A stretch of 64,000 nucleotides of DNA from Hemerocallis citrina (Eukaryota > Streptophyta > Magnoliopsida > Asparagales > Asphodelaceae): NCBI GenBank assembly GCA_017893485.1, contig CM030362.1, positions 178,188,166-178,252,165 on the forward strand, written 5' to 3'. The position numbers and the translations under genes were made by a program. The notes below the pieces were generated by a model. It made no database searches. It saw nothing but the letters and a program-made list of their open reading frames with translations, and was not told the origin of the DNA. Numbering within the stretch: position 1 is the stretch's first letter; the number at the start of each line of letters is the position of its first letter. This document shows positions 12,300-57,720 of the stretch, piece after piece.

Positions 12300-13600
12300 C
12301 AAAAAATCCATTATATATATGGTAAATTATTGGCAATTCTATTATTTATCATGCTATAATACTATTCTCCATATAACAATGAATATGGCTAATTGGCAAT
12401 TCTATTTTGTCAGCATCCGTATGCTATATCTATGCAGGAAGCTTGCTTCCATCGTGATATAGCTAGGCACGTAACAGATCATTAGAAACTTACGTTGAAT
12501 TACAAAATCTCCAAAACTCTAAAACAAAGTTTTCCAAAGAATAACCAACAAACAGATGCTAGTTACACATAGAAGAAGAGGGTCAGTAGTCAGTATGCAT
12601 GTTGACATCCTAGACATCAACGGCCAGCCTGGTTGGTTGTTTTTTTTCTTCCGAAGAGGAATAAACTTTCCAAAGAGCTAGTATCGAGTCAATACACGTA
12701 CGTGTAATTAGAATCCTGCAACGGATACGGTTGATTCAAACAAATGCAAAATAAGCACAAGTCTGCCATCAGTGGTGGGAGCTCAACTGAAATATATAAC
12801 CTTCACCTGGAACTACTTATATATCTAACTATAATCAAACTGTTGGGATTGGGGCGTCAACCAACGCCCGTTGTCGCAGCGGAACTAATAGAGCAATGAG
12901 AAAGTCGAAGTAGATGAGATGAATAAATTGAGCAAGCAAGTAGATCCACCAAACTAACACAAACACAACGATGGCTTATCCCAGTTAGATTTTGCTTAAT
13001 CCGGAGGAAAATATAGGGAGATCTGATATTCAACTAGAAGAGATTATAAGGAGTTATTGATTCACTCAATACAAGAAATTAAACTCACCCACCGAGAACT
13101 ATCTCTCTCGAGCCTCTCTTTGCAATGGAGAAAAGAATCTATGAAGTACTCTCTCTCATATTGGAGGAGTTTACAATATATATAGAAGAATAGAGAGAAA
13201 CCTAGGTCTAATCTTGATTCTCAGTCGTCCGATATAACCTAGAAAAGAAGTAACTGAATAAGAGCCACACGATCTAACTTGGAGTTGAAGATTGGGCTGA
13301 AACAACCTAACAAATCGAGTCCTAAAACGAACACAGCGCCTCGGTCGGTCGACCGTCCAACAAAACCGATCGACCGTACCACTCTCTAACAATCCCTATA
13401 TTACGAGCAGTCGGGGGTGCGGTCGACCGTAATAAAGGACAATCGACCGCAGCTAGATAAGGTTGTGATACTATCACAATTTTGCAAGTTAGGCTGTATT
13501 AAAAGTCACGAGGACATACAAACTTCCGTTAATCATCGTGACCAGCCACTTTAATGGATCGTGCCATTAACATTTGGTCTGTCATTTCCCCCTAGCTAGC
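12300..13600. other. Spacer with LTR-like segment (about 12841-13450) and GTCGAC pairs
   Basis: From 12841 the sequence starts TGTTGGGATTGGGG, has a GTCGCAGCGGAA block often met near plant LTR ends, and a minus-strand TATATATA-type box near 13175. I could not find a matching second terminus or target duplication. Two pairs of GTCGAC palindromes lie at 13348/13369 and 13422/13442. Outside this segment nothing is recognised. Confidence 0.35.
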
Positions 13601-13607
13601 TAGCAGG

Positions 13608-13631
13608 TTCTTCTTCTTCTTCTTCTTCTTC
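13608..13631. repeat. (TTC)n microsatellite
   Basis: Eight TTC units just upstream of Copia 1, following a CTAGCTAGCTAG run. Confidence 0.9.
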
Positions 13632-13892
13632 CCTGCAGCTGCCACTATTTCACTACAGGTGATCTAAGACTCCAGCATTGTCATTCTTTAATTTCTCTCT
13701 CTAGCAGGACGAAAGGTTTATGCCCAAAAATTATACCAAGCATGCGTGCGTGCGGACAGGGATTGAAATGAAACGTACAGTTGCAACTAATTTAGCTTAC
13801 TTGGGGGATCAAAATAAATGCAAGAGAGTCAGCGGCTTAAACAACATAGAGAATCAGGAATTTGCTCGTCATTTAATTGATAGGGTTGGTAC

Positions 13893-14879
13893 CGTTGGAA
13901 ATCGATTCCAACGTTTTCTACTCATCAAGATGTATAAAATGATGTACTCACATGTCCAAAACGGATTTTAAATAAATGAAATATTCGCCTCCGAAGTTAG
14001 CTTGTTAAAAATAAAAAATTTGACTTTTGCTTGATATGTGACATTGAAAGAGTCCAATATCGGAAAGGAGCAAAAAACAAATGCAGTTATAAGTTAAAAA
14101 CTGAGCGACAGGGTTGTGCCCTTAAGGGTAGGAATATTTTCTCCGGAGGGAGAACACACCAAACTTGGACGTCGGTGTGAAACATACGCGCCCCCCCGCT
14201 CGGCCTGACCCGGGCTCGGGCTGGGCTTGGGCTTAAAATAGTGAACTTATTTTTTGCAAAAATTCAATTCTGATTTGATACGGGCTGGATACGGACAGTT
14301 GCAACTGTCATGACAGTTTTGTCCGAACAGTTGCAACAACTGCCAAGGGCTTAGGGCTATAAATAGGACTTGATTCTGATCAAATCCGAGCCCCATTCAT
14401 ATCTTCCCTACCACCTTGTATCAGTATAGACATATCAAAAAATGTTGTCATATTCTTTCTCGACCGAGTCTCTATTATTCTAGTGTAAGTTAATGGAGAT
14501 CTGACTGTTGTATCTTGGGAGACGACTGCCGCATAACCTGTATACACTGTAGCAGTGGCAGAATTAAACGTCTTAAGGACATTGTTTCAACAAGCCTCAG
14601 TTTGTCTTTTTCTTCACCATATTCAAGGTCGGAATTGAAGATAACATATCTTTTTTTTGTGCTTTGTGTACAGTGATATACGCTGTTTGCGAAACAGTCC
14701 CTTTAATTCATGATTATCAAGGTTCGAATTGAAGATACAATATCTTCCGTTTGTTCTTTATTGATAGTGAATTATACTGTTTGCGTAACAGTATAATTAT
14801 TATTAAATTCGAGTAGGAATTTAATTCGTTGTTATTATTTTTTCATTAAAAATTAATTTTGTCTACTTAAGGTATAACA
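13893..14879 (+). repeat. Copia 1 5' LTR
   Basis: 987 bp ending GGTATAACA. A TATAAATA box at 14358-14365 marks the U3/R promoter. The upstream region has a GC-rich CGGGCTCGGGCTGGGC block in otherwise AT-rich DNA. No TGG-type primer-binding site follows directly. Confidence 0.9.
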
Positions 14880-14921
14880 ACTTATGACGTTTATGTTTTT
14901 ATTTCTTTTGTAGATAACAAT

Positions 14922-15830
14922 ATGACTACCAAAATAGAACTCCCGAAAATGGTTAATAGTATGCACAACAAGCACGGGAATTTCAAAGGGGCGAACTTCA
15001 AGACTTGGCAGTGCAAAATGCTCTTCTATCTCACAACTCTCGGGTTGGATAGGTTCCTCGAGGAGGAGGAACCAAAGCCCGCAGAGGGGTAGACTCTAGA
15101 AACTCACAAGGAGACGTTTGCAGCAGTGGATGCATGGAGGCATTCGGACTTTCTTTGCTGGAACTACATCCTTAACTGTTTGGATGAAGTTCTGTACAAG
15201 ATATACAGTCCACTCACTACTATAAAGACCTTGTGGACCGCTCTGGCCTACAAATACAAGACTGAGAATGCCAGTTTGAAGAAATTTATCGTGGATAAAT
15301 TTATGGACTACAAAATGGTGGACTCTAAGTCTGTCACTATTCAGATGCAGGAGCTTCAGATCCTTATTCATGAGATTGAAGCCGAAGATAATAAGGTTGG
15401 CGAATCCTTTATAGTGGAAGCAATCGTTGGAAAGTTACCAACATCTTGGAAAGACTTCAGGTAATACCTCAAGCACAAAAAGAAGGAAATATCCTTGGAA
15501 GATCTTGTTGTTAGGTTGAAGATTGAAGCAGACAACCGAGGAACAATCAAGTTCAAAAGCGAGGAGGCTAAAGTACATGTTGTGGAAAGCTCCAACAAGC
15601 GGAAGGGCAACTCCAACAATAACAAGAAGAATTCCAAGAAGAGGAAAGCTTCAGATCAAGGATCCAGAGACAAGAAGTCCAACAAGAAGTTCAATGAAAA
15701 TTGTTGGATTTATGGGAAGCCTGGTCACTCTGTCAGAGACTACCGTTTCAAGAAAATTGGCGGCACTTCAGAAGCAAATGTCACTGAGAACATCACTTCA
15801 AGCATCGATGAGCTAAATTTGTCTACTATT
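14922..15830 (+). pseudogene. Copia 1 gag, broken by stops
   Basis: The reading starts MTTKIELPKMVNSM and runs through a UBN2-type gag with [13 protein letters not shown] and LPTSWKDF blocks. In-frame stops are at 15090 (TAG) and 15462 (TAA, in DFR*YLKHK, where a Gln codon is expected). The CCHC zinc knuckle reads CWIYGKPGHSVRDY, with two of three cysteines changed to Tyr. Gag normally forms the virus-like particle, so particle formation is lost. Confidence 0.85.
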
Positions 15831-15839
15831 GTTTCTGAA

Positions 15840-18800
15840 TGTAATCTAGTCCAACACCCCGGACAATGGTGGGTAGACACAGGTGCTACTCGGCACATAT
15901 GTTTCGATAAGTCACTGTTCTCATCTTATCAGAAACTAGATCACGAAGAAAAACTTTATATAGGCAATTCTGCTGTGTCGATGGTCGAAGGCTGATAGGT
16001 CATCCTGAAGTTCACGTCGGGTAAGAACGTCACGCTGAACGATGTGCTTCACGTGCCAGACATCCGCAAGAACTTTATTTCTGGATCTGTGCTCTCCAAG
16101 AAAGGCTTTCAGATTGTGATTGAGTCAGACAAGTTGGTGCTAACCAAGACTGGGGTTTATGTTGGGAGGGAATATCTGTGTGATGGATTATTCAAAGCTA
16201 ATGTAACCGTAATTGGCAAAAACCCAATGTACTCTAATTCTATGATTAATAAAAATTCAGTTTCTTATTTGCTTGAGTCTGAAATAATTTTATGGCATGA
16301 TAGATTAGGGCACATAAATTTTCGAAAGATGAAAAAACTTACAAATTTATGTTTGATTCCAAACTTTAAATTTGATAAAAATTACAAGTGTGAGACTTGT
16401 GTAGAAGGAAAAATGGTCAAGAAACCATTCAACACAGTGGACAGGAGTACTGAGCCGTTATGCATAATTCATATTGATTTATGTGATTTCAAATTCTTAC
16501 ACACGAGAGGTGGAAAAAAGTATTTTATCACATTTATCGATGACTGCACTTGATATTGCTATGTCTATTTACTAAATAGTAAAGACGAAGCAATTGCAAC
16601 ATTCACAAAATACAAGGCTGAAGTAGAAAATCAGCTTAACAAAAAGATCAAGATACTGAGGTCTGATCGAGGTAGAGAATATGAGTCTCCATTTGCACAA
16701 TTGTGTGAAGAGTATGGAATTATCCACCAAACAACTGCCCCATACCCACCTCAACAAAATGGAATTGCAGAAAGAAAGAAAAGAACGTTAAAGATATGAT
16801 TAATGTCTTGCTTATAACTTCTGGACTACCTACAAACTTGTGGAGGGAAGCCTTATATATGTCGAATCACATATTAAATAGAGTCCCACACAAGCAAACT
16901 GATTCCATTCCATATGAGTTATGGAAATGACATATGCCTAATTACAAATATCTCAAAGTGTGGGGATGTTTGGCTAAGGTCTCGGTTCCTCTTCCTAAGA
17001 GAACCAAACTTGGACCAAAAACTGTAGATTGCTATTTTCTAGGCCATGCCAAAAATAGTAGTGCATACAGTTTCCTAGCATTCAAGTCTGAAGTACGTGG
17101 CATCTGTGTAAACACAATCATTGAGTCAAGAGATGCCATATTCTTTGAAGATGTGTTTTCAAACAAAAGAAATAATGGAAACCCTGACCTCAAAAGAACA
17201 AGAGAAGTGTCAACTGAGAAACAGGATGAAACTCATCATGAAAATAGTGAATCCAAACCAAGAAGTGTAAGACCTAAAACCTCTAAGTCTTTCGGTCCAG
17301 ATTTTCTAACATACATGCTGGAGGCTAAACCTCAGACTTACAAAGAGGCAGAATCATCCTCGGAGTCTCCCTATTAGAAAGAAGCTATCAATAGTGAGAT
17401 TGAATCGATTCTAAGCAATCACACCTGGAAGTTGGTGGACCTTCCACCAGATCATAAACCAATTGTATGTAAATGGATCTTCAAACGGAAGATGAAACCA
17501 GATGATTCTATTGACAAATACAAGGCTAGATTAGTAGCTAAAGGGTATCGCCAGAAGGAGGGCTTAGATTTCTTTGATACCTATTCACTGGTTATGCGGA
17601 TAACCTCTATAAGAATGCTGATAGCAATATCATCTATCTATAATCTTGAAATTCATCAAATGGATGTCAAGACATCATTTTTAAATGGGGATCTCGAAGA
17701 AGAGATCTACATGGAGCAACCGGAAGGGTTTGTTTCAAAGGGAGCTGAAAATAAAGTATGCAGACTTGTTAAATCCCTATATGGACTTAAACAAGCTCCG
17801 AAACAATGTCATGAAAAATTTGACAATGTCATGATGAAAAATAGTTTTCGAATTAATGAATGTGATAAAAGTGTTTATTACAAACAAATGAGACAGTCAT
17901 GCGTGATCATTTGCCTGTATGTGGATTATATGCTTATCTTTGGTCATAACCTGGAAGTCATCAAGACTATAAAGAAAATGCTAATCAACCACTTTGACAT
18001 GAACGACTTAGGTGTGAAAGATGTTATTTTGGGAATCAAAATAATAAGAACATCTAGTGATATTGAATTATCTCAATCACATTATGTGAAAAAACTGCTT
18101 GAAAGATTCAAGGGACAGGGAATTAAAGGAGTATCAAACCCTTTTTTACCATTTATAGTTTTGCACCAAAAAATTGGTGAAAGTATAATGCAACTGGAGT
18201 ATTCTCGTGTGATAGACAGTTTAATGTACCTTATGAACTGTACGAGACCAGACATTACTTACGTAGTGAGCAAACTAAGCAGATACACAAGTAACCCAGG
18301 AAAAAGGTCACTGGACGTCACTACTAAGAGTACTTGGGTATTTAAAGAATACCACAAACTTTTCACTGCATTATGGTAGATACCCTGCCGTTCTTGAAGG
18401 ATACAGTGATGCAAATTGGATATCGGATTCAGAAGAATCAAAATCCACAAGTGGTTATGTCGTTACCCTAGCAGGAGCTGTTGTATCATGGAAATCTTCT
18501 AAACAAACGTGTATTGCCCGATCCACAATGGAATCCGAGTTCATTGCTTTAGATAAAGCAGGTGAAGAAGCTGAATGGCTTCGCCACTTTTTAGAAGATA
18601 TTCTATTTTGGCCTAAACCAATTACGGCCATTTATACCCATTGCGATAATCAAGCAGCGCTAAGTAGAGCGCACAATTCTTTATATAATGGCAAATTACG
18701 ACATATTCGTAGACGACATGATACTGTTCGATACTTACTCTCCAATGGAATTATTTCCATTAACTTTGTGAGGTCACGGGATAACTTAGCGGATCCATTT

Positions 18801-18863
18801 ACTAAGAAATTATCCAGAGAGAAAATTAACTGTGCATCTAGGGGAATGAAGTTAAAATCCTAA
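15840..18863 (+). pseudogene. Copia 1 pol (protease, integrase, RT, RNase H), broken
   Basis: The protease motif WWVDTGATRHIC lies near 15865. Tandem TGA-TAG stops follow at 15993-15998. The integrase has the HHCC zinc region (LWHDRLGH, then CETC) and the DDE set: HIDLCDF, LRSDRGREY, NGIAERKKRTL. It is cut by TGA at 16551, a frameshift near 16793 and TGA at 16928. After TAG at 17375 comes RT: KWIFKRKMKPDDS, HQMDVKTSFLNGDLEEE. The catalytic YVDD box reads YVDYML, so the second Asp is Tyr. RNase H ([31 protein letters not shown]) ends at 18863. Several stops fit C-to-T decay of methylated cytosines. Confidence 0.9.
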
Positions 18864-19461
18864 AACAATACAAGTTACCTTAGACGGAAACCTAACCTTG
18901 CGACTGGAGATCCCATGGACCAGGTTCAATTGGACAACTAGTTATGAGTAACTCAAACAGAATTGCATTTGCACTCAGGTTCATCTCATTCCTATGGTGC
19001 AAAATAAATGAATGCCTACAAAAATATTAAAAGGTTAAGCTATGTTTTTAATGACGTCCATATCTTGAAAATCACAAGTGGAGTATTGTAGAGTAACTTT
19101 TTATGGATGCAGTCACCTATATAATTGTGAGCTGGGTGGGTCGGCTATATGAGAAAAGGCTGGAGTTCTCTAAAAACATTCGCAAAACTGAGATTTGTTC
19201 AGGACCAAAATGAACACAACCGAGAGATTGGATGTGAAGAACACAATGTTGTGTAGAGTTTATTGTTTGGGCATACACTAACGGATGACAGTTCAAGATG
19301 AAATATTTCACTGATTAGCCAAGTATGTCCGATAAACTATAACTAGGGAAGGTTCAAAGTGAAATATCTACCTATCCATGATGCAACATTGTTTCAATTG
19401 CACTTTGTGATATGTACCTGTTGTAAGGTGGGAGACGAAAATTATCATTCATGTAGGGGAT

Positions 19462-20445
19462 TGTTGGAAATCGGTTCCATTGTATTCTACTCATCAAGAC
19501 GTATAAAATAATGTACTCACATGTCCAAAATGGATTTCAAATGAATGAAATATTCGCCTCCGAAGTTAGCTTGTTAAAATGAAAAATTGAACTTTTTCTT
19601 GATATGTGACATTGGAAGTTAGTCCCATATCGGAAAGGAGCAAAAAGCAAATGAAGTTATAAGTTAAAAACTGAGCCAAAGGGTTGTGCCCTTAGGGGTA
19701 TGAATATTTTCTCCGGAGGGAGAACACACCTAACTTGGGAGTCGGTGTGAAACACATGCGCCCGCCCGGCCCGGCCGGGCCTGACCGGATCGGGGCTCGG
19801 GCTTGGACTTGGGCTTGGTAAACTTATTTTTTGCAAAAATTCAATTCTGATTTGATACGGGTAGTTGCAACTGTCATGAAAGTTTTGTCCGAACAGTTGC
19901 AACAACTACCAAGGGTATAGGGCTATAAATAGGACTGGATTCTGATCAAATCCGAGGTCCATTCATATCTTCCCTACCACCCTGTATCAGTATATGCATA
20001 TCACAAAACGCTGTCATATCTTTTTTCGACCGAGTCTCTATTATTCTAGTGTAAGTTAATGGAGTTCTGACTGTTGTATCTCGAGAGACGACTGCCACAT
20101 AACCTGTATACACCGTAGCAGTGGCAGAATTAAACGTCTTAAGGACATTGTTTCAGCAAGCTTCAGTCTGTCTTTTTCTTCACCATATTCAAGGTCGGAA
20201 TTGAAGATAACATATCTTCATTTTGTGCTTTGTGTACAGTGATATACGCTGTTTGTGAAACTGTCCCTTTAATTCACGATTATCAAGGTTCGAATTGAAG
20301 ATACAATATCTTCCTTTTATTCTTTGTTGATAGTGATTTATACTGCTTGCGTAACAGTATAATTATTATTAAATTCAATTAGGGATTTATTTTATTGTTA
20401 TTATTTTTTTATTAAAAATTAATTTTGTCTGTTTAAGGTATAACA
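19462..20445 (+). repeat. Copia 1 3' LTR
   Basis: 984 bp, TGTTGG...ATAACA. It is preceded by a polypurine tract ATGTAGGGGAT, and 18864-19461 between RNase H and LTR is noncoding. TATAAATA is at 19925-19932. Confidence 0.9.
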
Positions 20446-20450
20446 GGTAG

Positions 20451-20799: not shown

Positions 20800-20809
20800 T
20801 CAAGTCTCA

Positions 20810-22663: not shown

Positions 22664-22705
<42 letters not shown>

Positions 22706-23456: not shown

Positions 23457-23539
23457 GGTTGGCGCCGTCTGTGGAAACCCTCGGTACGGACACTAGTCCG
23501 AACCCAGCCATTTACGGCATCCCATCAATCCGAGCTTAC

Positions 23540-25760: not shown

Positions 25761-25769
25761 CAATGAGGA

Positions 25770-26260: not shown

Positions 26261-26269
26261 CCCAACACG

Positions 26270-28341: not shown

Positions 28342-28890
28342 TTTTTTGCCATATACGAGGGTCGGTACCTCGGTACCTCGGCTCGGAGGGCCAGCACCTC
28401 GGCTCGGAGGGTCAGCGCCTCGGCTCGGAGGATCCGAGGTACGTGGCATCATCTGGGCCGTCCATCTCAGCGTGAATCTCCATAAAACGCTATCTTGTCG
28501 TTTAGTGGGCGTGGCCAAATCTGGGGCGTCCATCATGATGAGCGTGCTTTTTCACAAGATCCAACGGCTGATATGGGTCGGTGTGATTTTTTGCCATATA
28601 CGAGGGTCGGTACCTCGGCACCTCCGCTCGGAGGGCTAGCGCCTCGGCTTGGGGGGTCAGCGCTTCGGATCGGAGGATCCGAGGTACGTGGCATCATCTG
28701 AGCCGTCCATCTCAGCGTGGATCTCCATAAAATGCTATCTTGTCGTTTAGTGGACGTGGCCAAATCTGGGCCGTCCATTATGACGAGCACGCTTTTTCAC
28801 AAGATCCAACGGCTGATATGGATCGGTGTGATTTTTTGCCATATACGAGGGTCGGTACCTCGGCACCTCGGCTCGGATGCTCGGTGCTAT
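28342..28890. repeat. Gypsy 2 tandem array A, 245-bp period
   Basis: TTTTTTGCCATATACGAGGG begins units at 28342, 28587 and 28832; two full copies and a partial third. Units contain TATCTTGTCGTTTAGTGG and short CGGCTCGGAGG sub-repeats. They lie upstream of the antisense ORF. Confidence 0.88.
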
Positions 28891-29090
28891 TTTGGCCGAG
28901 GCGCTGAGATGGCTTATTTTGAAAGAAATGTCTCTTGGTGGTTTGACCTTCTGCGCCTGGTAGCTCGGCTGCTCGACTAAGCTATTCGGTAGCTCGGTCG
29001 AGCAGGCCGATGACAGGCAGTTCGGAAGGTGCACGCGGCAGGATCTAGTTCGTCCATCATGGCGCGCATCACGAGGATGGGGTTCAGATC

Positions 29091-30090
29091 ACGAGAAAAT
29101 GTTATCTTGTCGTTTTGTGGGCGTGGCACGATCTGAACCGTCCATCAAATTCTGTCGCGAATTTTGGAGAGATCCGACGGTGACTTCGCCTCGGGATGAT
29201 TTTTCTCCATATACGAGGGTCGGTACCTCATCATCTCGGCTCGGCGCATCAGGGCTGTTTGGCCGAGGTGCTGAGTTGTCTGTTTTGGGGGAAACGTCTT
29301 GGGGGTTCCACCTTTCCGTGCCTAGTAGCTCGGCTGCTCGGCTGAGCTGTTCGGTAGCTCGGCTGGGCAAGCCGATGGCAGGCAGCTCGGAAGAGACGCG
29401 TGGCTGGATCTGGGCGCTTCATCATGGCATGCATCACGTGGACGGGGTTCAGATCACGAGAAAACGTTATCTTGTCGTTTTGTGGGCGTGGCAGATCTGA
29501 ACCGTTCATCGGATCCTGTCGCGAATTTTGGAGAGATCCGAAGGTGACTTCGCCTCGGGATGATTTTTCTCCATATACGAGGGTCGGTACCTCGTCATCT
29601 CGGCTCGGCGCATCAGGGCTGTTTGGCCGAGGTGCTGAGTTGTCTGTTTTGGGGGAAACGTCTTGGGGGTTCCACCTTTCCGTGCCTAGTAGCTCGGCTG
29701 CTCGGCTGAGCTGTTCGGTAGCTCGGCTGGGCAAGCCGATGGCAGGCAGCTCGGAAGAGACGCGTGGCCGGATCTGGGCGGTTCATCATGGTGTGCATCA
29801 CGAGGACGAGGTTCAGATCACGAGAAAATGTTATCTTGTCGTTTTGTGGGTGTGGCAGATCTGAACCGTCCATCGGATCCTGTAGCAAATTTCGGAGAGA
29901 TCCGACGGTGACTTCGCCTCGGGATGATTTTTCTCCATATACGAAGGTCGGTACCTCGTCATCTCGGCTCGGCGCATCAGGGCTGTTTGGCCGAGGTGCT
30001 GAATTGGCTGTTTGGAAGGTGCGCAGTAGCTCGGTTGCTCAGCCGAGCTGTTCGATAGCTCGGCCTGGCAGACCGATGGCCGAGTCGTCG
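29091..30090. repeat. Gypsy 2 tandem array B, about 365-bp period
   Basis: ACGAGAAAA begins units at 29091, 29456 and 29820; the first two are nearly identical, the third truncated. Each keeps the TATCTTGTCGTTTTGTGG and CATATACGAGGGTCGGTACC blocks of array A, so the arrays share an ancestor. The array ends shortly before the antisense ORF and may supply its promoter. Confidence 0.88.
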
Positions 30091-41455: not shown

Positions 41456-42510
41456 AGTTAAACAGTTTCTCTTAAACTGCTTGGGTCTCGACGCTCGGAT
41501 GACACCGCGAGCTCCAAAAAGTTTTTCCTAAACTGCTAGGACCTCAATGCTCGAAAGTCACTGCGAGACAGAAAAAGTTTTTCTCAACTGCTTGGTCCTC
41601 GACGCTCGGATGTCACCGCGAGCCCCAAAAAGTTTCTCCTAAACTGCGTGGGCCTTGACCCTCGGATGTCACTGTAAGCCCCAAAAAGTTTCTCCTAAAC
41701 TGCTTGGGCCTCGACGCTCAGATGACATCGCGAGCGAAAAAAGTTTCTCCTAAACAGCTTGGACCTCGACACTCGGATGTCACCCCAGCTAGAAAAAAGT
41801 TTCTCTCAACGGCTTCAGGGTCGACGCTCGGATGTCACCGAGAGCCTCAAAAAATTCTTTCAACTGCTTGGGCCTCGACGCTCGGATGTCACCACGAGCC
41901 CCAAAAAGTTTCTCCTAAACTGCTTGGGCCTCGACGCTCGGATGCCACCGCGAGCACAAAAAAGTTTCTTCTAAACTGCTTGGGCCTCGACGCTCGGATG
42001 ACACCACGAGCCCCAAAAGTTTTTCCTAGACTGCTTGGACCTCGATGCTCGGATGTCACCGCGAGACAGAAAAAGTTTCTCTCAACGGCTTCAGGGTTGA
42101 CACTCGGATGCCACTGCGAGCCCCAAAAAGTTTCTCTAAACTCCCTGGGCCTCGATGTTCGGATGTCACCGCGAGCTCCAAAAAGTTTCTTCTAAACTGC
42201 TTGGGCCTCGACGCTCGGATGTCATTGCGAGCCCCAAAAAGTTTCTACTAAATTGCTTGGGCCTCGACGCTCGGATGACACCGCGAGCCCCAAAAAGTTT
42301 ATCTTAACTGCTTGGGCCTCAATGCTCGGATGACACAGCAAGCTCCAAGAAGTTTCTCCTAAACTTCTTGGACCTCGACGCTCGGATGTCACCGCGAGCC
42401 AGAAAAAGTTTCTCTCAACGACTTCAGGGTCGACGCTCGGATGTCACCGCGAGACCCAAAAAGTCCTCTCAACGGCTTCGGGGCCTCGACGTTCGGATGC
42501 AACCGCGAGC
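41456..42510. repeat. Gypsy 1 tandem array, 55-57-bp monomer, about 19 copies
   Basis: Monomers share CTGCTTGGGCCTCGACGCTC, then GGATGTCACCGCGAGCCCC and an AAAAAGTTTCTCCT stretch. Copies differ at several bases each. The two-strand ORFs here are by-products of a period divisible by three in places. It lies between the antisense ORF and the 3' LTR. Confidence 0.92.
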
Positions 42511-42860
42511 CCCAAATTATCCCCCAACCAGGGAGGGGGCTCGCCTCCCGACCCTCGATGCTCGGCAAGAAGACCTCATACTCCACGGATCTCTACGTCC
42601 CCTTGCTTTTCCAACAAGTGAGGGAGCTCGTCTACCAACCCCTTACGCTCGACCAAGCGACCTCGGGGTCGATGCTCGGATGAAACCGCGAGCCCCAAAT
42701 TATCCCCAACTAGTGAGGGGGCTCGACTCCCGGCGCTCGACGCTCGGCATGAAGACCTCCTACTCCACGAATCTCGACGTCCCCTTGCTTTTCCAACAAG
42801 TGAGGGGACTCGTCCACCGACCCTCGACGCTCGGCAATCCGAGCTCCGACTCTTCTGCAC
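42507..42860. repeat. Gypsy 1 second array, about 181-bp unit, 2 copies
   Basis: GCGAGCCCCAAATTATCCCC starts units at 42507 and 42688. Both hold CCCCTTGCTTTTCCAACAAG. The first bases are shared with the 56-bp monomer, so the larger unit grew from it. Confidence 0.85.
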
Positions 42861-44066: not shown

Positions 44067-44818
44067 TGTTGGAAATAGTTTTGGCATATTTTTCGGGCTG
44101 GATTCCGGTGGGCCCCGGTCACCGGCGGCGCCGGAGAATGATTGAATTACGTTCCTCTCGTCGAGTACTATTCCGTAATGTACTCACTTGCTAAAAACGG
44201 TTTCCGTATGAATGAGAAATGTAGGTCCAAAGTTGGATACTCGAAATGTACTAACTTGAGAAGTTGGAATGGATAGTCCCACATCGGAAGATGGAAAAGA
44301 TTTTCTCTAGTATATAAGCTAAATAAATTGACTAAAAGGCGTAGCCCTGGGGTTACCACTAACGTGTAGTGGAGAGAGGACCTAGCCAAATAACAAACAC
44401 ACGCGCGCGCGCCCGGCCCCGACTTCGGCTCGGCTCGGCTCGGCTCGATAACAGCAAAGTAATGACTCATCAGCTACTCATCTTTTCCTATAAGACAAGT
44501 AATTTTTGTTTGCCAGTACACAGAGTTTTCAAATCTTCTTCTTCCTCTGAGTCAAAGTCTGAGAGTACAACACATCTACTGGTTCGCTGAGATCTCTGAA
44601 GCTAGGGTGCTGCTCTTCAGGGAAAGATAATACAGTTGTATCCTGGGAGGCAATTCGTCAACCACCGTCACACTACGAGGCGAATTTTGCTTTAAGGACA
44701 GAGATCTTAATCTCGACTCTGTATTGAAGTGTCTGGTTTGTTCTTTTATTTCCTGTAATTGTATTTCTTCACAAACATTGTTATCAATTTCCTATTTTAT
44801 GAAATTAAAGTTCTAACA
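44067..44818 (+). repeat. Copia 2 5' LTR (shorter copy)
   Basis: 752 bp, ending TTCTAACA. It lacks about 166 bp present in the 3' LTR around 52530-52720. A (CG)n run (ACACGCGCGCGCGC) precedes a CGGCTCGGCTCGGCTCGG minisatellite. No TGG-type primer-binding site follows. Confidence 0.9.
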
Positions 44819-44934
44819 ATCTTAAAGCAAAATTTTTCCTTTATTCTAACAGTTTTGTGAAGATTATTTACATGAACTGTTATCATTTCGGAAAAACAAA
44901 CAACTAACAGTTCAATTTCATCTGTTTCAGAAAA

Positions 44935-45687
44935 TGGAAAACACACAGAACGAAAATGCCAGTGCACTTCTCAGTGCACAAATACCAGTGACCCAAAATG
45001 TGACTGTACAATTGGTTGCGGCACAAACGGTCGTTCTGTCCACATATATAATTGTGGGAGAAAAACCGAAGATGCAGAAGTACAAAACAGAAGAAGTACA
45101 AAACAGAAGATGCAGGTTCCAAGAAGTTTGTAGTTGGTAAATTTCTGGATTACAAGATGGTTGACTCCAAGACAGTTGTGAGTCAAATTCAGGAACTGCA
45201 GGTGATAATGCATGAAATCGCTGCAGAGAACATGACGCTGTATGAACCATTCCAGGTAGCAGCGTTCATTGATAAGCTTCCACCTGGATGGAAGGACTTC
45301 AAGAAATACCTCAAGCACAAGCAAAAGGAGATGTCTCTTGAGGACCTGATTGTGAGGTTGCAAATAAAAGAGGAGAATCGCAAGGCTGACAAGTCCTATG
45401 AAAATCAATCCATAGAAAAGGCCAACATGGTAGGACACGAACAGAAGGGCAAAAAGAGGAAGTTCTTGCCACAATCCTCGAACAAAAAACCTGCAGCAAA
45501 AAGATTTGCTGGAAAATACCACAAGTGTGGTAAGTTGGGGCACAAAATCTCTGACTGCTGTAGCAAGGACAACAACTGTGCTGGAATTGGACAGGCAAAA
45601 GGGAATGACAAATTCCATGCACACATAGCTGAGAACTTGTCCACTGGTCTCTTTGACTTGGACCTCTGTGTTGTTGTACAGTGGTAA
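44935..45687 (+). pseudogene. Copia 2 gag, internally deleted
   Basis: The frame starts MENTQNENASALLSAQ, then jumps after about 40 residues into the middle of gag ([34 protein letters not shown]). The expected intervening 100 or so residues are missing and a [19 protein letters not shown] repeat sits at the junction. The zinc knuckle reads [12 protein letters not shown]; the first Cys of the set is absent. It stops at 45685. Confidence 0.8.
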
Positions 45688-45689
45688 AT

Positions 45690-46787
45690 CTGGTGGGGAG
45701 CAATCATCATGATTGGTGGTACGATACTGAGGCCACCAAGCACATCTGCTCGGACAAGAGATGTTCACCTCATACCAGAAATGCAACAAGGATGAACAGT
45801 TGTTCATGGATAATTCTTCCACTTCCAAGATTGAAGGAACATGGAAGATAGTGCTGAAGATGACTTCAGGCAAAGAACTAACACTAACAAATGTGTTGCA
45901 CGTTCCAGATATTAAAAAGAACTTGGTCTCGGGATCTTCGCTAAGCAAGAATGGATTCAAGGTCATTATTGCTTCTAATAATTTTGTACTATCAAAGAAT
46001 GGAGTGCACTTGGGAAAATGGCATGTAAAGGATGGACTGTTCAAATTCAATGTAATGACAGTCATCCCAAAATCTGTTGTTCCTGTTGTTCCCAAAATTA
46101 ATGAAATTACTCCTATTGCTTATGTTATTGAGTCTTCTTCTGTTTGGCATGAAAGACTAGGCTATGTTAATTTTAATTCTATGCATAGATTAATTAACAT
46201 GAGTTTACTACCAAATTTAAGGTAGACAACTGTGAAAAATGTGAAGTTTGCACAGAGACCAAACTCACTAAAATTCCATCATGTTATGTAGAAAGAAACA
46301 CTGAAAATCTATGTCTAATTCACACAGATCTGTGTGATTTAAAATACGTACAGACAAGAGGCGGTAAAAAGTAATTTGTGACATTCATAGACGATTGCAC
46401 AAAATTCTGTTATGTATACTTGTTATATAGCAAAAATGAGGCTTTAGATAAATTCAAGGAATATAAGCTTAAGGTTGAGAATCAACTTGGCAAAAAGATT
46501 AAAACCGTTAGGAATGATAGAGGAGAGAAATATGATGCACCATCTAATATGTTCTGCTCTGAACATGGAATAGTTCACCAGACAACTGTTCCTTACTCAC
46601 CTGAATCAAATGGTACTGCCAAGCGCAAGAACCGAACTCTAAAGGAGATGATGCCTTGTTGTTGAATTCTAGGTTACCCCAAAACATGTGGGGGAAGCAA
46701 TGCTGACTGCCAACTATATTCTCAATAAAATACCTCACAAGAAAACTGGCAAGACACCATACAAACTGTGGAAAGGTAATGTACCTT
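45690..46787 (+). pseudogene. Copia 2 protease and integrase, first part
   Basis: A protease remnant (WWYDTEATKHICSDK, active-site Gly changed to Glu) is followed by NVLHVPDIKKNLVSGSSL, the HHCC region SVWHERLGYVNF, and integrase core HTDLCDL, VRNDRGEKYDAP and NGTAKRKNRTL. The last block carries Lys where the catalytic Glu belongs. Stops at 46223, 46373 and 46663. The frame breaks at YKLWKGN where the solo LTR is inserted. Confidence 0.85.
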
Positions 46788-48029
46788 TGTAGAACCCCGT
46801 ATTTTCAAATATTATTTTAATTATTTGAAAATGAATTTAAATGAGTTTTGAGGATTTAATTGATATTTTCCTAGAAGGTTTATCTTTTGTACACGTGCAA
46901 AACACGTGCAAATGACTTTTGAGATGTTTGAAAAATTAAGATTTCTTTATGAAAAATCATTATTTATTATTTTGAAATTATGTAGTATTTTTCCGGATTT
47001 TTCTGAATTTAATTAGTACTATTTGTAAATTTTAAGAAAAGAATGACCTTTTTGTAAAATTGACATTTTTAAGGGCTAAAATGCAAAATTGGCATTTTGG
47101 ACGTTTTAAACAGTATTGGTTAAGATTTAGAAGTATATTTTCTATTAAATCCTAATTTTAATGAATTTTGGATGAGTTTCCAAGAGTAGATAGATATATA
47201 TAAAATTGTATTTTGAAGGGATTGTTTTGCAAATGTATTTGGAAACCCTAGAACCTAATTCCCGGCCTATATAAAGAGAGTTGCAGCCGTCATTCGCTGC
47301 ATAACTCAGATTTCATTATATTATTTTCTTGGTGATTGGAGAAGGAGTTTGGATCTAGCAAAGGAAGGCTTTTGTGGATTCTTCTTGTTTCTAAAGGTGA
47401 GTGATATGAACTTAGTTTTGTTAGTGTGTATGATGGTGTGCTGTTTTGTTTGATGTATCCGTATCTTGTATGTGATCGATGCAATAGTCGTTATTCGTAT
47501 TACGCATGAGAAATCCACGAATGTTTAGTAGATCTTGTTTAACAAATTCTTTATTGATCGAAAACATGTTAAGATTCAAGTATGGTTTGATCGGATGTAT
47601 GAACATCTGAATCTTGTGTTTATAATCAGATCTCGGTTATTATTGGTGGAAGAATTAAGTATTAAGGAAACCCTAATGTAAGATTTAGGAATTTGAGAAC
47701 AAGAGAATTGAGTTTTGAGTTATTGAATGATTGAATAATGGATCTGCAATGAAGAAGTAATCGAGATTGTCATTTTACATGATTAAGAATTATTTTCATG
47801 AACAAGAACCTTTAGAAAACTCCAGTTTTGATCTTTGTATTCAGACCTAACTTATGCAAACTGTAGGCCGACAGTCGACTGGTCTACTATTCAGTCGACT
47901 GGTACGACCCAGCTGTTGTATCTTTAGTTTTTCTCGAAAATCCGTTCTGGACAGTCGACTTAGACCCTTCTCAGCGACTGGTACACTTAGAATTTATTTT
48001 TCAAAGTTATCGTAGAATTTCTCTCGGGT

Positions 48030-48485
48030 AAGTCGACTTATGTTTTTATAAGTCGACTTATGTTCTTATGAGTCGACTTATGTCCCCTTTTAAGTCGACT
48101 TATGTTTTGATAAGTCTACTTATGATTTTTATAAGTCATCTTATATTGTTGATAAGTCTACTTATGATTTTTATAAGTCATCTTATGTTTTGATAAGTCT
48201 ACTTATGATTTTTATAAGTCATCTTATGTTTTGATAAGTCTACTTATGATTTTTATAAGTCATCTTATATTGTTGATAAGTCTACTTATGATTTTTATAA
48301 GTCATCTTATGTTTTGATAAGTCTACTTATGATTTTTATAAGTCATCTTATGTTTTGATAAGTCTACTTATGATTTTTATAAGTCATCTTATGTTTTGAT
48401 AAGTCTACTTATGATTTTTTTTAAGTCATCTTATATTGTTGATAAGTCAACTTATGTTTTTATAAGTCATCTTATACTGTTAGCA
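48030..48485. repeat. 20-21-bp minisatellite built on AAGTCGACTTATG
   Basis: About 22 head-to-tail units. The first four keep AAGTCGACTTATG; later ones alternate AAGTCTACTTATG and AAGTCATCTTAT, giving a 42-bp higher-order unit. Confidence 0.9.
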
Positions 48486-48667
48486 CTTGGAATGTTTCTT
48501 GAGAATTAGTGATAATTGTCTCGGGTAAGTCGACTGATGGTTTTCTTGAGTCGACTCACTGCACTTGTTATAATCTTGGATATTGGTTCTCGGGGCAGTC
48601 GACTTACTGTCGCATAAGTCGACTGGTTCTGATGAGTTTTCATAATCTTGAGTGTTCTTTCAGTCTT

Positions 48668-48952
48668 TAGTTTGTTTGTAGATGAATATATTCGTCGGTG
48701 TCTTGGCATACCGGGTTCGTATTCGATCTATACCTTCTTAGTTTGTTTGTAGATGGATATGTTCGTCGGTGTCTTGGCATACCGGGTTCGTATTCGATCT
48801 ATACCTTCTTAGTTTGTTTGTAGATGGATATGTTCGTCGGTGTCTTGGCATACCGGGTTCGTATTCGATCTATACCTTCTTAGTTTGTTTGTAGATGGAT
48901 ATGTTCGTCGGTGTCTTGGCATACCGGGTTCGTATTCGATCTATATTATCTT
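48668..48952. repeat. 71-bp tandem repeat, 4 copies
   Basis: TAGTTTGTTTGTAGATG starts units at 48668, 48739, 48810 and 48881. Copies contain GTCGGTGTCTTGGCATACCG and are nearly identical, so expansion is recent. Confidence 0.92.
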
Positions 48953-49663
48953 TGGTCTTGTAGATGGATATATTGTTATCCGATCTATGGCATTATTGGT
49001 GATCGATTGTTGGACATGCATTGTGGTACTGAGAATTGTTGACAGTTGGACATATTCTGAGTTGTGAGGATTACTGTTTGTTCAGAACAGTCGACTGGTT
49101 CATAAGACAGTCGACTGTACCGTACAGTTAAGCTGTACATATTTTGAGAGAGATTGATTGATTGATACTTGATCGTTGGTATTGTTTCTTGACTCGGCTT
49201 CACTCATGTACTGGCCTATCGTTCTTGTTTCAGATTACATATTCAGTTTATGTATTTTTGTTCAGTATATGTTGCTTATGTTTAGTTGTTTTGTTTATGT
49301 TTGTTGTTTATATCACTCACACCATTTATGGCTGACCCCGTAGTTTTGGGGGTTAGGGTTCAACTCTAGCCTCATGTGATGCAGATTGCTTAGAGTTGGA
49401 GGCTTGGATTCGCTTTGGATTTTAGAGAGTGATATAATAGAGCCTCGGGTAAATTTGTAAAGAAAAAGGGTTGTAACAGTTAAATGTATTTTAAGGTGTT
49501 TTGTATTTCCGCTGCCATTGTAAAAGAATGTTGTAATAAGAATTTGGAATAAAATGATTTGAGTTTTTTGGGCTATGCATATTGTTACATTGAAGTGGAT
49601 CGCTGGGAATGTGCCACGTATTTTCTAAGTTCTCATATTAGAAATTCGGGGCGCTACAACCTT

Positions 49664-51582
49664 TGTATAAATACCTCAAAGTGTGGTGTCTAGCAAAAGT
49701 GGTAGTACCTAATCCAAAACAGGTCACAATAGGACCTAAGACCATTGATTGCATATTCATAGGCTATGCACACAACTGTAGTGCATATCGGTTTTTGGTA
49801 TATAAATCGGATAAATAGGACATCCATGTGAATACAATAATGGAATTAAGGAATGCTTCCTTCTTTCAACACGTGTTTCCGTGCAAGGATGCTACATATC
49901 CCAAACGTACACGTGAGTAAGGGAATGCAAGCACTTCGGTTGATGAACCAGGACATGATAATGATGAACCTAGATGAAGTAAATGGGCTAGAACATCAAA
50001 GTCATTTGGTCTTGACTTTGTAACGGCCTTTCTGTTAGAGAACGAGCCCAGAACATTCAAGAAAGCGATGTCTACGCCTGATGCTCCTATGTGGAAGGAA
50101 GCAATCAAAAGTGAAATAGACTCCATTATGCAAAATCATACATGGGATTGGTTGATTTGCCTTCTGGGTGTAAAGCTCTAGGCTGCAAATAGATTTTCAA
50201 ACAAAAATTGAAACCAGATGGTTCAATAGAGAAACATAAGGCGAGACTTGTGGTACAAGGATTTAGGCAAAAGGAAGGCCTAGACTTTTTTGATACATAT
50301 TCCCCGGTCAAAAGAATAACTTCCATAAGAACGTTGATAACTATCACAGCTCTGCGTAACTTCAAAATACATCAAATGGATGTCAAAACTGTATTTCTCA
50401 ATGGGGATTTAGAAGAAACAACCTGAGGGTTACGTAGTTCCCGGACAGGAAAACAAGGTGTGCAGGCTTGTAAAATTCTTGTACGGACTGAAATAAGCTC
50501 CAAAACAGTGGCATGCAAAATTTGACTATGTTATGATGTTGAATGGTTTCAAAACAAATGAATGTGATAAATGTATCTATATCAAAGATACTCTAAATGG
50601 ATACATTCTGGTATGTCTTTATGTAGATGACTTGCTCATTATTGGTAGCAATAATGACATTATCAAACAAACTAATAACATGCTTAGTGGTAAGTTTGAT
50701 ATGAAAGATTATGGAGTTGCAGATGTCATACTAGGAATCAAAGTTTCCAGGATGTCTGAGGAAATTACTTTGTCTCAAACTCATTACGCTGAGAAAGTAC
50801 TTGAAAGATTTAAGAATTAATCCAATGGGACCGCCAAAAGTCTTGTGGATCACAGTCTTCACTTGTTCAAAAATACGGGTGACAACATATCACAATTGGA
50901 ATATTAACGTGTAATCGGTAGTCTCATGTACTTAACAAATTGTACAAGACTGGACTTGGCACATTCAATAAATGTACTGAGCCGCTACACAAGTAATCCA
51001 GGATGAAGTCACTAGAAAGGAATAACTAGAGTATTGAACTACTTGCGACATACTCAGAGTTATGGGCTACATTACACCAGATATTCAGCGGTACTAGAAG
51101 GCTACAGTGATGCTAACTGGATATCGAACTCCAAGAACTCAAAATTCACAAGTGGGCATGTCTTCACTCTTGGTGGTACAGTTGCATCATGGAAATCCTC
51201 TAAACAAATGTTACTGGCCAGATCCACCATGTAATCTGAGTTTATTGCTTTAGACAAAGCGGTAGAGGAAGCAGAGTGGCTTCAAAACTTTTTAGAGGAT
51301 ATTTCCATATGGGAAAAACCAATGCCTGCTATATGTGTACACTATGACAGCCAATCGGCTATAGCAAGGGCACTGAGTTGTATGTATAATGGTAAGTCTC
51401 GTCATATCAGAAGGCGATATAAAACCATTAGACAACTGCTCTCTAATGGAATAATCTCTATAAAGTATATAAAATCGACCGACAACCTAGCGGATCCATT
51501 TACTAAAAGTTTATCACGAGAGCAAATTGTGAGATCATCAAGAGGAATGGGTTTAAAGCCTATGACGAAAGAGAATATTTGA
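49664..51582 (+). pseudogene. Copia 2 integrase end, RT and RNase H
   Basis: The frame resumes as LYKYLKVW directly after the solo LTR. RT blocks KPDGSIEKHKARLVVQGF and HQMDVKTVFLNGDLEE are followed by a frameshift at about 50425, then an intact catalytic CLYVDDLLIIG box. RNase H reads [32 protein letters not shown] and RHIRRRYKTIRQLLSNG, ending at 51580. Stops at 49816, 49918, 49975, 50818 and 51232 inactivate it. The region 51583-52150 is noncoding up to the polypurine tract ATGTGGGGGAT. Confidence 0.88.
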
Positions 51583-52150
51583 TGGAAACCCTTCTTAGAA
51601 ATTGGAGATCCTAAGATCTAGGTTCAAGGAGACAACTAATTCTTGTTGAATCGACGTGAACACTGAGAGATTAAAATCTCGTACTCACTCTTAGGTTGAT
51701 AAAACAATGTTGTCTGCAAAGGGTTAGGATAAGCTTGTCTTTTAATGATTTCCCTAGTTTTGAAATAAAATTGGGGTATGGCATGATATTTTTTATGGGA
51801 AATCACCATGTAAGTGTGAAATGGGGCCGTTTCTAGGAGAATGAAGACATGCTACATTCTCTAAGTTCACTCACGATTAACCATGGTTGTTCAAAGCCAA
51901 AATGAACATAACAAGAGAACCTAGTTCTGTGAGGAGATGAAATTGTGTGATAGTTATTGTCTAGGTTCACATCAAAGCCCGGGTAGTTCAAGACATCATG
52001 TTCACTATTTGGCCATGTTAAAAATTGAAAAATTACTACCATTCCTGATGCATTAATTTTCCGATTGTACTCTTAGAGTCTTTTCTGTCATGTTTTTTTT
52101 CTGTCGTGTCTAGATTACATGGTCTAGTCATTTCCATTCATGTGGGGGAT

Positions 52151-53068
52151 TGTTGGAAATAATTTTGGCATATTTTTCGAGCCGGATTCTGGTGGGCTCC
52201 AGCCACCGGCAGTGCCGGACAATGATTAGATTATATTCCTCTCGTCGAGTACTATTCCGTAATGTACTCACTTGCCAAAAACAGTTTCCGTATGAATGAG
52301 AAATGTAGGTCCAAAGTTGGGTACTCGAAATGTACTAACTTGGAAGTTGGAATGGATAGTCCCACATTGAAATATGGAAAAGATTTTCTCTAGTATATAA
52401 GCTAAGGAAATGGACTAAAGGGCGTAGCCCTGGAGTTACCACTAACGTGTAGTGGAGAGAGGACATAGCCAAAATAACAAACACACGCGCGCGCGCGCCC
52501 GGTCTCGGCCCTGGCCCCGGTTTCGGCTCGGTTCGGTTCGGTTTGGCTTGGCTCTGGCCTATATTTTTTTTTGCCCCGCTCCAAAATTTTCTCCAGTTTA
52601 CTATTGAGGCTTTTCAAATTCTGTAACTGGTACCATTACTCTATAACAGTAGAGTAATGGCTCATCAGTTACGTTTTTGAACCATACTCTACTGTTACAG
52701 AGTAATAGACCCTTTAGTTTCTCCTCTTTTTCTATAAGACCAGTAATTTTTATCTGCCAGTACACAGAGTTTTCAAATCTCCTTCTTCTTCTTCCTCTGA
52801 GTCAAAGTCTGAGAGTACAACACAGCTACTGGTTCGCTGAGATCTCTGAAGCTATGGTGCTGCTCTTCAGGAAAAGGTAATACAGTTGTATCCTGGGAGG
52901 CAATTCGTCAACCACCGTCACACTACGGGACAAATTTTGTTTTAAGGACAGAGATCTTAATCTCGACTCTGTATTGAAGTGTCTGGTTTGTTCTTTTATT
53001 TTCTGTAATTGTATTTCTTCACAAATATTGTTAGCAATTTTCTATTTTATGAAATTAAAGTTCTAACA
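52151..53068 (+). repeat. Copia 2 3' LTR (longer copy)
   Basis: 918 bp. The extra segment relative to the 5' LTR holds a perfect CCATTACTCT/AGAGTAATGG inverted repeat (52633-52660) and a second TACTCT/AGAGTA one at 52687-52706. Confidence 0.9.
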
Positions 53069-53073
53069 CTAAC

Positions 53074-54539: not shown

Positions 54540-54541
54540 TA

Positions 54542-55864: not shown

Positions 55865-55865
<1 letters not shown>

Positions 55866-55913
<48 letters not shown>
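55866..55913. repeat. 48-bp poly(A) run
   Basis: Unbroken A tract directly before the Helitron start. The open frames through it encode only Lys or Phe runs. Confidence 0.95.
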
Positions 55914-55916
<3 letters not shown>

Positions 55917-56048
55917 CTACTACTATAATGGGAGAAGGCCTTTGTCCTTAACCCAACCCGTGCAATGCACGTATAGGTAAAATTTTTTTTTGCCCTTTTC
56001 ATTCCTCTCAATTTTTTTTCCACGTGCACAGCATGTGTATAATACTAG
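55914..56048 (+). mobile_element. 135-bp non-autonomous Helitron-like element
   Basis: The 5' end is TCTCTACTACTATAATGGG. The 3' end has a hairpin CACGTGC-ACA-GCATGTG (one G-T pair), seven bases and then CTAG followed by T; the base before the 5' end is A. A 5' TC, a subterminal hairpin, a 3' CTRR and insertion between A and T are the Helitron signature. An ACCCGTGCAATGCACG block inside is typical of plant Helitron ends. No helicase gene, as expected at this size. Confidence 0.65.
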
Positions 56049-56799
56049 TGGATAATAACTGCAGCTGATTTTTTTGCTAAAATTTGAGTATTTTGATAAA
56101 ATGACTGAGACTACAGATGCTCTAAGCGCAACTATTTTCATCCCTGATTCTTCGCCAACAAACCACGTGTTAGTTATACCTTGGTCAACTGCAACACTGT
56201 GAAAAAACATGCATACGTCCAAATTTTTTTTTGATGAATCGAATAGGATCTTGCGACCCCAGCCATCACACAAAAATATTATTAAAGATAATAAACGGTA
56301 TTTTACAAGCCGTAAAATGTAGAAACTAAACTACCACAAGCACACAGAGATCGGAAAAAAAGACAACAACAATCATGAGCCAGATAACAAATAAGCTAGG
56401 GTACAGAGAAACAACGTAGCGAAGAACATTGGGCTGCGGGGATTCACACGACGCTGGATCCTTCCACCCTGACAGAAGAGACTCCTGGCGTGGGACTAAG
56501 AGCGCACCCGGTGAAGAGATGAGCACAACAGGCTGAGGGAACATCGCCGAAACCAAGCAGAGTAACCTCCCGCGAACAGCAAGTATGGAGGCATACCACA
56601 GCAAACGGCCACCACCAAAAACTCGATGAACTAGCCACCACAGCTAATATAGCTCTGGTTGGGAGACCTGGATCTATATGCGGATGCATCTTATCTTTTC
56701 ACTCCGCCGACCACCAGCCGAATCATAGAGTTCCAGAATCATCAACACATCAACCAAGAGCCTTAATCTATCAGCATCAAAGAAGGAGAGAGGAGATCA

Positions 56800-57720
56800 A
56801 GTAATCCGAAGGGAACAAGGCAGTCGACTGAGCGACAGCCAGTCGACCTATCTGCCGGACTTCATCAGTTTATTTCTCCTCTTTTCAGTCTTTTATGTTA
56901 ATCATGTATTCGAACTTGCTGATCAATAAATGTTTAATTATGTGGAACTAATTTCATAGTTGGGTAGATTGAAACCGTAGTTATGTAATGCTTCTATTCT
57001 TCTGAGTGCTATTCTGTTACTTATTGATTAAACCTGAGAGTATTGGTATAGATTTATAATAATCAACTTGTTCAGAATTCTAAGGGCAGTCGACTGAGGT
57101 GACAGCAAGTCGACTGACATACAGAATCTGAGTTTATCAAGTTTGAGTATTATGAATCTGAATCTGTTATATGAGCATATTGAGACGACCCGTATCTCGT
57201 GCTCATAACTTGTAACACAGAAATCTTTAAGGGTTCTTGGTTTAATCAACTCGAGGGATCTAGATCTGATACCAATTTCTAGAACTTTGAGTGTTTGTTC
57301 GTTTCCATTGTTCTTATGTTTTCTTTAAGTGCAACTTAGTAGATACCATGCTAAATACTTAAGGAAAGAAACGAATTAGAGTAGATACCATGCCTAATTC
57401 TTGGCTAGGGAAACAATACTTTAAGGAGTAGATACCATGCCCTTAAAGGAACGAACATGAGTAACTAGAATAGTGAAGAAGGTGACTTAGCATTACTGAC
57501 TACAGGTGGAAATCAAAACCCAACTACTTGATAAATATTTGTGATTCAGAACTTCTTGATATAGTTTTTTTAATCTTTTTATTTCTTTAGAAACAACACT
57601 TTAAGAACCTTATTTCTATGTTATTGGTTAGCAATGGTCGACCCTTGCTCGTCACTACGCTTCTAATAACGATTCATACACTTGCGAGGTTTTTAATTTG
57701 TGTCTAGTTTAGATCATCTA
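56800..57720. other. Insertion of unknown type in the LINE 3' region
   Basis: Sequence on both sides (56282-56700 and 57721-58421) is A/C-rich LINE 3' DNA, while this block is AT-rich and different. It carries two GTCGAC pairs (56822/56841 and 57088/57108), a minus-strand TTGGTATCAGATCTAGATCC resembling a tRNA-Met primer-binding site (about 57255-57275), and three AGTAGATACCATGC copies at 57338-57440. It looks like a small LTR-type element, but I could not find its ends. Confidence 0.4.

Follow-up and report, generated by a model that had tools for sequence, protein, structure and literature searches.

The window analysed here is a stretch of 64,000 nucleotides, positions 178,188,166–178,252,165 of contig C5 in the 3.78-Gb genome of Hemerocallis citrina (701 contigs), and it contains pairs of the palindrome AGTCGACT, with GTCGAC at its core, whose two members lie about 20 bp apart. 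Such pairs are present at some 200,000 places in this genome. They were found in the long terminal repeats (LTRs) of retrotransposons and, beyond the LTRs, in variable linkers of gag and pol. Taken together, the abundance, spacing, conservation and distribution described below make it probable, though well short of certain, that these pairs are a cis-acting operator in double-stranded DNA, a putative activator or anti-silencing site needed by several retrotransposon lineages.

GTCGAC occurs 31 times in the window. The original prediction claimed nine GTCGAC pairs; six were found to be exact, with the pairing correctly given and GTCGAC starting one base further right than quoted, and in the remaining three the partner departs from the hexamer by a single altered or lost base (Table 1). 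A run of four GTCGAC in steps of 20, 20 and 22 bp had been overlooked. The window had nine GTCGAC pairs spaced by 19–22 bp, as compared with 0.005 on average and never more than 1 in 200 dinucleotide shuffles, and therefore they are not due to chance.

The genome-wide distribution of spacing, which had been put forward as the test of the original prediction, showed a sharp peak at 20–22 bp with the control near zero. Exact AGTCGACT pairs, for which the counts in repeats are lower bounds and the spacings counted were 8–18 and 20–37 bp, numbered 106,585 at 20 bp, 70,258 at 21 bp and 27,293 at 22 bp, against 6,008 for 8–18 bp together and 8,631 for 23–37 bp together. The control with reversed pattern gave 0, 3 and 1 pairs at 20, 21 and 22 bp, respectively, and 13 and 57 pairs in the two wider ranges. 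The three peak counts are thus nearly 185, 120 and 47 times the mean per spacing in the 23–37 bp range, and the mean in the 8–18 bp range is similar. The peak agrees with the earlier suggestion of a constraint that fits both palindromes on one face of the DNA. Furthermore, 20 unselected 10-kb regions contained 70 AGTCGACT sites and 25 exact pairs at 19–22 bp against 0.1 expected, and 63 of these 70 sites had a partner at 19–22 bp when up to two mismatches were allowed. When all 256 8-mer palindromes were compared, only TA repeats gave more pairs at such spacing than AGTCGACT, and no exact pairs were found for any other 8-mer palindrome with the composition of AGTCGACT. Among the matches listed, the places with short spacing (8–18 bp) were all 12 or 18 bp apart; a family with palindromes 12 bp apart and copies about 5 kb apart (for example, G000:C1:4148475 and 4153428) represents a minor spacing class. 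The pairs had been assigned to three separate repeats. This understates their extent, as 58 distinct spacers were found in about 0.35 Mb sampled, which was partly picked for containing pairs and in which spacers were counted within spacing classes. This diversity of spacers bears out the earlier view that the pairs are not copies of a single unit.

The conservation of the pairs was monitored by aligning modules with both palindromes exact to homologous stretches, irrespective of whether the motif was kept there. In 295 alignments with flank identity below 90%, the palindrome 8-mers were intact in 530 of 590 cases (90%) as compared with 276 of 1413 random 8-mers from the flanks (20%), and the palindrome CpG was intact in 561 of 590 cases against 951 of 1670 for CpG in the flanks. 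In methylated transposons, no dinucleotide normally decays faster than CpG, so its retention in the palindromes suggested a strong constraint. Where both palindromes were kept (240 alignments), their spacing in the other copy was 19–22 bp, except for two at 29 bp.

The pairs are carried by three kinds of elements, two of which are represented among the host segments of the window. These segments had all been suggested as possibly LTR-related, and this holds for 46788–49658 and 56757–57710. The former is a solo LTR flanked by a 5-bp target duplication, ACCTT (46783–46787 and 49659–49663). LTR copies related to it were found at seven loci (L025–L030 and L049) and the interior of a relative in L051, where Pfam detected Ty3-type gag, reverse transcriptase (RT), RNase H and integrase; we take the lineage to be Tekay/Del-like, and Pfam backs the Ty3-type assignment only. 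No GTCGAC was present in 4.6 kb of the interior of this relative (LTR copies L025–L028, interior L051), and therefore not every lineage has modules in its genes. In L049, a Ty3-type LTR, the modules recur every 76–79 bp. The invariant columns in eleven LTR units from L049 and the window solo LTR, which were cut around modules and hence chosen for having them, were both palindromes plus one nearly invariant outer G. The second LTR-related segment resembles an element in L034 that has identical LTRs and open gag and pol in the order Retrotrans_gag, protease, RT, RNase H and integrase. This lineage is presumably Athila-like, Pfam again backing Ty3-type only. Each L034 LTR contains five pairs; in two of these, one member has a single mismatch. 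In its coding part, one pair in early gag is read as QSTAVRTQST, the end of gag has a pair 29 bp apart, five palindromes, two of which have a single mismatch, are clustered between protease and RT, and one pair between RNase H and integrase is read as VDWSFHQST. The third kind is a copia-type family (gag PF14223) represented by L031 and L037, which are 76% alike over 3.3 kb; we assume that it is SIRE-like, Pfam backing copia-type only. Its palindromes upstream of gag are placed in an LTR because a relative on contig C1 has a stretch matching this upstream region further along. In that relative, L002 matches L031 from gag on, L003 matches the pre-gag stretch further along, and a pair at 103722 recurs with the same spacer at 112194, which is 8,472 bases further along. 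Palindromes are also found in frame at the end of gag in L037 (SRL, SRP and KST words) and, in L031, in the part of pol that follows the integrase region (KST and QST words); an 18-bp pair also lies inside a pol frame of L031. A relation to LTRs was not seen for the remaining host segment of the window, the stretch before 13893 with the pairs at 13348 and 13422, which matched none of the pair-bearing loci sampled and has palindromes of a second class, GGTCGACC.

Across L034, L031 and L037, gag and pol between them use every reading frame of one and the same DNA word (QST/KST, SRL/SRP and VDW/VDC), which argues for selection at the DNA level. The 33-residue stretch between protease and RT in L034 pol was missing in all seven aligned relatives (62–83% identical), and the 18-residue stretch between RNase H and integrase was missing in five of the seven, the other two having 5 and 1 unrelated residues. 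When the encoded words were looked for at the protein level, the best 120 of 7,933 pol relatives yielded a single loose match, at 22 bp (P0044), which was taken as chance, and 79 copia-type gag relatives yielded none at 18–23 bp. The gag segment of L037 was also considered as an insertion and was set aside since the region is too variable to call. The palindrome clusters in pol of L034 and L031 sit between enzyme domains, which suggests that these places tolerate palindromes.

The second palindrome GGTCGACC formed 12,840 pairs at 19–22 bp genome-wide, and its class includes the window pairs at 13348 and 13422 and one pair in L046. The half-changed, non-palindromic AGTCGACC formed 1,894 pairs on each strand and TGTCGACA formed 6 pairs genome-wide. 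The doubly changed GGTCGACC being commoner than the half-changed AGTCGACC is what a need for each word to remain palindromic would predict, and these counts support the palindrome symmetry. Mixed pairs of AGTCGACT and GGTCGACC numbered 955 + 980 (1,935) against about 100,000 expected under free assortment of the counted pairs. Thus, the two classes are nearly separate, which may reflect distinct histories, distinct proteins or both.

For the anatomy of the modules, those with two AGTCGACT and no more than one mismatch in total were chosen, so the core is conserved by construction. Clustering by shared 7- to 9-mers was dropped because arrays share the motif, and ungapped flank identity was used instead, by which 114 pairs fell into 24 clusters with the largest of 59. 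Beyond the core, most of the 24 clusters have the longer word CAGTCGACTG. The spacers (58 distinct) are unlike one another and their middle is unconserved. A weaker outer signal, G-N-N-C-Y-G, was noticed in 79 distinct flanks at a distance of roughly one helical turn from the centre of each palindrome, with 1.2 bits at G1 and nearly 0.5 bit each at C4 and G6. Two of C, Y and G were present on 18 left and 20 right flanks of 29 modules.

The two-turn spacing, the second class being palindromic as well, the conservation in LTRs and the word read in three frames together point to double-stranded DNA that is read by a symmetric protein assembly. A protein dimer would bind to each palindrome, CAGTCGACTG or, in the second class, CGGTCGACCG. 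With two helical turns between them, both dimers would sit on one side of the DNA and work together as a tetramer, assisted by a weaker C-Y-G contact about one turn outside each palindrome. The dimeric or tetrameric protein contact that the original prediction had proposed is plausible and better supported than it was from the window alone. Arrays of the putative operator are present in LTRs of unrelated elements, presumably Athila-like and Tekay/Del-like Ty3 and SIRE-like copia elements, and the Athila-like and SIRE-like ones carry it also in the variable linkers of gag and pol. These arrays may have grown by tandem duplication and insertion and been kept by selection. The bound protein may let the element be transcribed in the right tissue or escape silencing, as in the VANC system of Arabidopsis described below. 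A site common to copia-type and Ty3-type elements favours a protein encoded by the host. A bolder version, which we offer tentatively and hold to have less than an even chance, is that copia-type and Ty3-type elements gained a tetramer site of fixed geometry independently, in LTRs and in coding linkers, and that one host regulator, or two paralogues for the A-class and G-class palindromes, jointly controls much of the mobile genome. CBF/DREB was considered as a candidate binder since GTCGAC resembles the dehydration-responsive element (DRE); one study reports no CBF3 recruitment at such elements (see below).

Several observations weigh against the operator as read above. The symmetry comparison uses one half-changed arrangement only, AGTCGACC, and the scarcity of mixed pairs could mirror separate family histories and not two binding specificities. 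In the 24 clusters, the stronger signal was that the two words tend to have the same base at a given position (identical at position 8 in 18 clusters, p 0.02, and at position -1 in 17 clusters, p 0.05), as copying would give. The complementarity of this outer base pair within a palindrome did not reach significance (18 clusters as compared with 15.1, p 0.07; 15 clusters as compared with 12.3, p 0.10). The full outer CYG was found on 5 left and 7 right flanks of the 29 modules. The 295 alignments share ancestry within few families and are non-independent, alignment programs anchor on conserved words, and the query modules were chosen for exact palindromes; at flank identity of at least 90% (11 alignments), the motif scored 81% and its flank 95%. 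Moreover, no pair was found in the copia-like elements of the window at 13894–20445 and 44067–53068 (outside the solo LTR), nor in its Ty3-like region at 22921–43532, called by eye from open reading frames (ORFs), or in its long interspersed nuclear element (LINE), and therefore not all elements of this genome depend on the site.

Other explanations of the pairs were weighed against the operator. Any such pair necessarily makes a perfect inverted repeat as well, and the L034 sites are spread along the entire transcript, as would suit a signal at the RNA level in which the two self-complementary words make a 10-bp hairpin with a loop of about 10 nt for packaging, dimerisation or processing of the transcript. 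Such a loop would allow lengths outside 10–12, yet the spacings of 8–18 and 23–37 bp are rare, and a hairpin does not need each word to be palindromic alone. The tenth of twelve flank positions did show arm-to-arm agreement above shuffles (12 of 29 against 7.2, p 0.035), but the flanks adjacent to the core had no stem-like agreement, positions 2 and 3 being equal in 4 and 6 of 29 against shuffled means of 7.5 and 8.2, respectively. As regards compensating changes between the two words, no significant core-adjacent arm-to-arm pairing was found, in a set whose core, by selection, varies very little. We consider this hairpin quite improbable. A similarly low standing is given to the module being a very small mobile or copy-paste unit in its own right, with retrotransposons as its targets, which would be abundant through its own spread and not through a use to the host element. 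The module-bearing in-frame stretches are missing from the pol of relatives, modules are present in unrelated elements, and the L034 module between RNase H and integrase is flanked on both sides by ACTCTC (seen by eye), which could be a target duplication; such a unit would nevertheless have to account for 58 distinct spacers and for palindromes and spacing that persist in diverged copies, which needs selection after insertion.

An anti-silencing factor of the VANC type, that is, a protein encoded by one transposon family with which its sites coevolve, seemed unlikely, though less so than the hairpin or the mobile unit. The present motif is, like the VANC targets, short, in dense arrays and with growth by tandem repeats (PMC5735166). 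On the other side, it is common to copia-type and Ty3-type elements and occurs in coding linkers, and the L034 ORFs of at least 120 amino acids are gag and pol only; the protein could be encoded elsewhere. Least credible of all, and very improbable, is a functionless 20-bp satellite or tandem duplication decaying by point mutation. Descent of all pairs from one 20-bp satellite, which the original prediction had named as its refutation, holds locally for the array at 48029–48475 and not elsewhere. The modules of the L049 LTR also recur at 76–79 bp, but spacers diverge while the palindromes including their CpG stay. A simple tandem satellite was thus rejected, since the copies are not alike over the whole unit and only the 48029–48475 array fits it.

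No description of the motif was found in searches of the open-licence PMC literature, as judged by titles and the starts of abstracts. The nearest known systems were compared from the portions of the sources available, to which the following statements about them are limited. The VANC target motifs of Arabidopsis VANDAL transposons are dense arrays of short words, arisen partly from tandem repeats and bound by an anti-silencing protein (PMC5735166, PMC10398659), and the present motif resembles them in being short and at high density within transposons. The VANC21 motif YAGTATTAY is not a palindrome pair, is arrayed in one orientation, lies for the most part in non-coding DNA and is rarely found outside the factor-encoding family (PMC5735166), whereas the present site is a spaced palindrome pair found in unrelated retrotransposons and also in coding linkers. 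Being in Ty3-type and copia-type elements and in gag and pol linkers, it is confined neither to one transposon family nor to non-coding DNA. The Su(Hw) array of the Drosophila gypsy insulator has 12 sites with a TGCATA-type consensus in 340 bp of 5′ UTR (PMC2374998); it clusters sites for one DNA-binding protein inside a retrotransposon, as the present arrays would do, but its sites are single, not palindrome pairs, and are in one element. The BII boxes of the Tnt1 LTR bind defence-induced factors in one element (PMC3316501). They are protein-binding boxes in the promoter region of a plant retrotransposon, which the present sites may resemble; repeated sites were seen in LTRs here, and the present sites are found outside LTRs as well; sharing across unrelated elements or copies in genes are not mentioned in the available part of that source. 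The DRE-like GTCGAC elements have the same hexamer as the present palindromes, and no recruitment of CBF3 was detected at two of them in the RGL3 promoter (PMC5209670). As far as the available portions go, none of the VANC targets, the gypsy Su(Hw) array and the Tnt1 BII boxes has the spaced palindrome pair, the sharing between unrelated elements or the copies in coding linkers.

Table 1. Palindrome pairs of the window and the LTR segments that carry them (positions in the window).
Feature	Positions	Strand	GTCGAC starts	Remark
Solo LTR of Ty3-type element, TGTAGAACCCC...GGGGCGCTACA	46788..49658	+		Inserted in copia-type element
LTR end plus leader	56757..57710	+		80% identical to L034 element
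GGTCGACC-class pair, 21 bp	13347..13375	no strand	13348	GGTCGACC at 13347; second member GATCGACC
GGTCGACC-class pair, 20 bp	13421..13448	no strand		GGTCGACC at 13421; second member AATCGACC
Paired palindrome AGTCGACT/AGTCGACT, 20 bp	47873..47900	no strand	47874/47894	
Pair at ~20 bp, second member decayed	47953..47980	no strand	47954	Partner CAGCGACTG, one T missing
Four AGTCGACT at 20, 20, 22 bp	48031..48100	no strand	48032/48052/48072/48094	Decayed ~41-bp array (GTCTAC/GTCATC) then runs to 48475
Paired palindrome, 21 bp	48528..48556	no strand	48529/48550	
Paired palindrome, 20 bp	48597..48624	no strand	48598/48618	
Paired palindrome, 20 bp	49089..49116	no strand	49090/49110	
Pair AGTCGACT/AGTCGACC, 19 bp	56822..56848	no strand	56823/56842	
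Paired palindrome, 20 bp	57088..57115	no strand	57089/57109	In stretch aligning to L034 LTR end, also with 20-bp pair

The window is dense in LTR elements and has one LINE. Within the solo LTR, GTCGAC has turned into GTCTAC and GTCATC in the ~41-bp array at 48110–48475, a decay during which the step of about 20 bp persists, and a 71-bp tandem repeat (3.9 copies, 99% matches) lies between palindrome modules at 48667–48945. In the Ty3-like region, a GC-rich unit of 56 bp is repeated in tandem about 19 times at 41460–42516, and tandem repeats with units of 245, 364 and 214 bp lie at 28342–30013 and 34176–34825. A Transposase_28 Pfam domain ("putative gypsy type transposon") was found in ORFs at 30418–31455 of the window and at 1447–2574 of L039; palindrome pairs are present from about 285 to 1110 in L039 and absent from the window region 22921–43532. 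LINE-like ORFs are on the minus strand at 58777–63985. The highest-scoring relative of the 839-amino-acid LINE ORF was 39% identical and none among the best 120 relatives exceeded 42%, so the host seems far from annotated genomes.

If the operator is real, unrelated retrotransposons would have converged on, or exchanged, one protein-binding design of strict helical geometry at about 200,000 sites of the genome. It would be a rare case in which selection at the DNA level was so strong that a regulatory word was imposed on the frames of gag and pol, and it would give, through one protein, a direct handle on why certain transposon lineages fill a genome.

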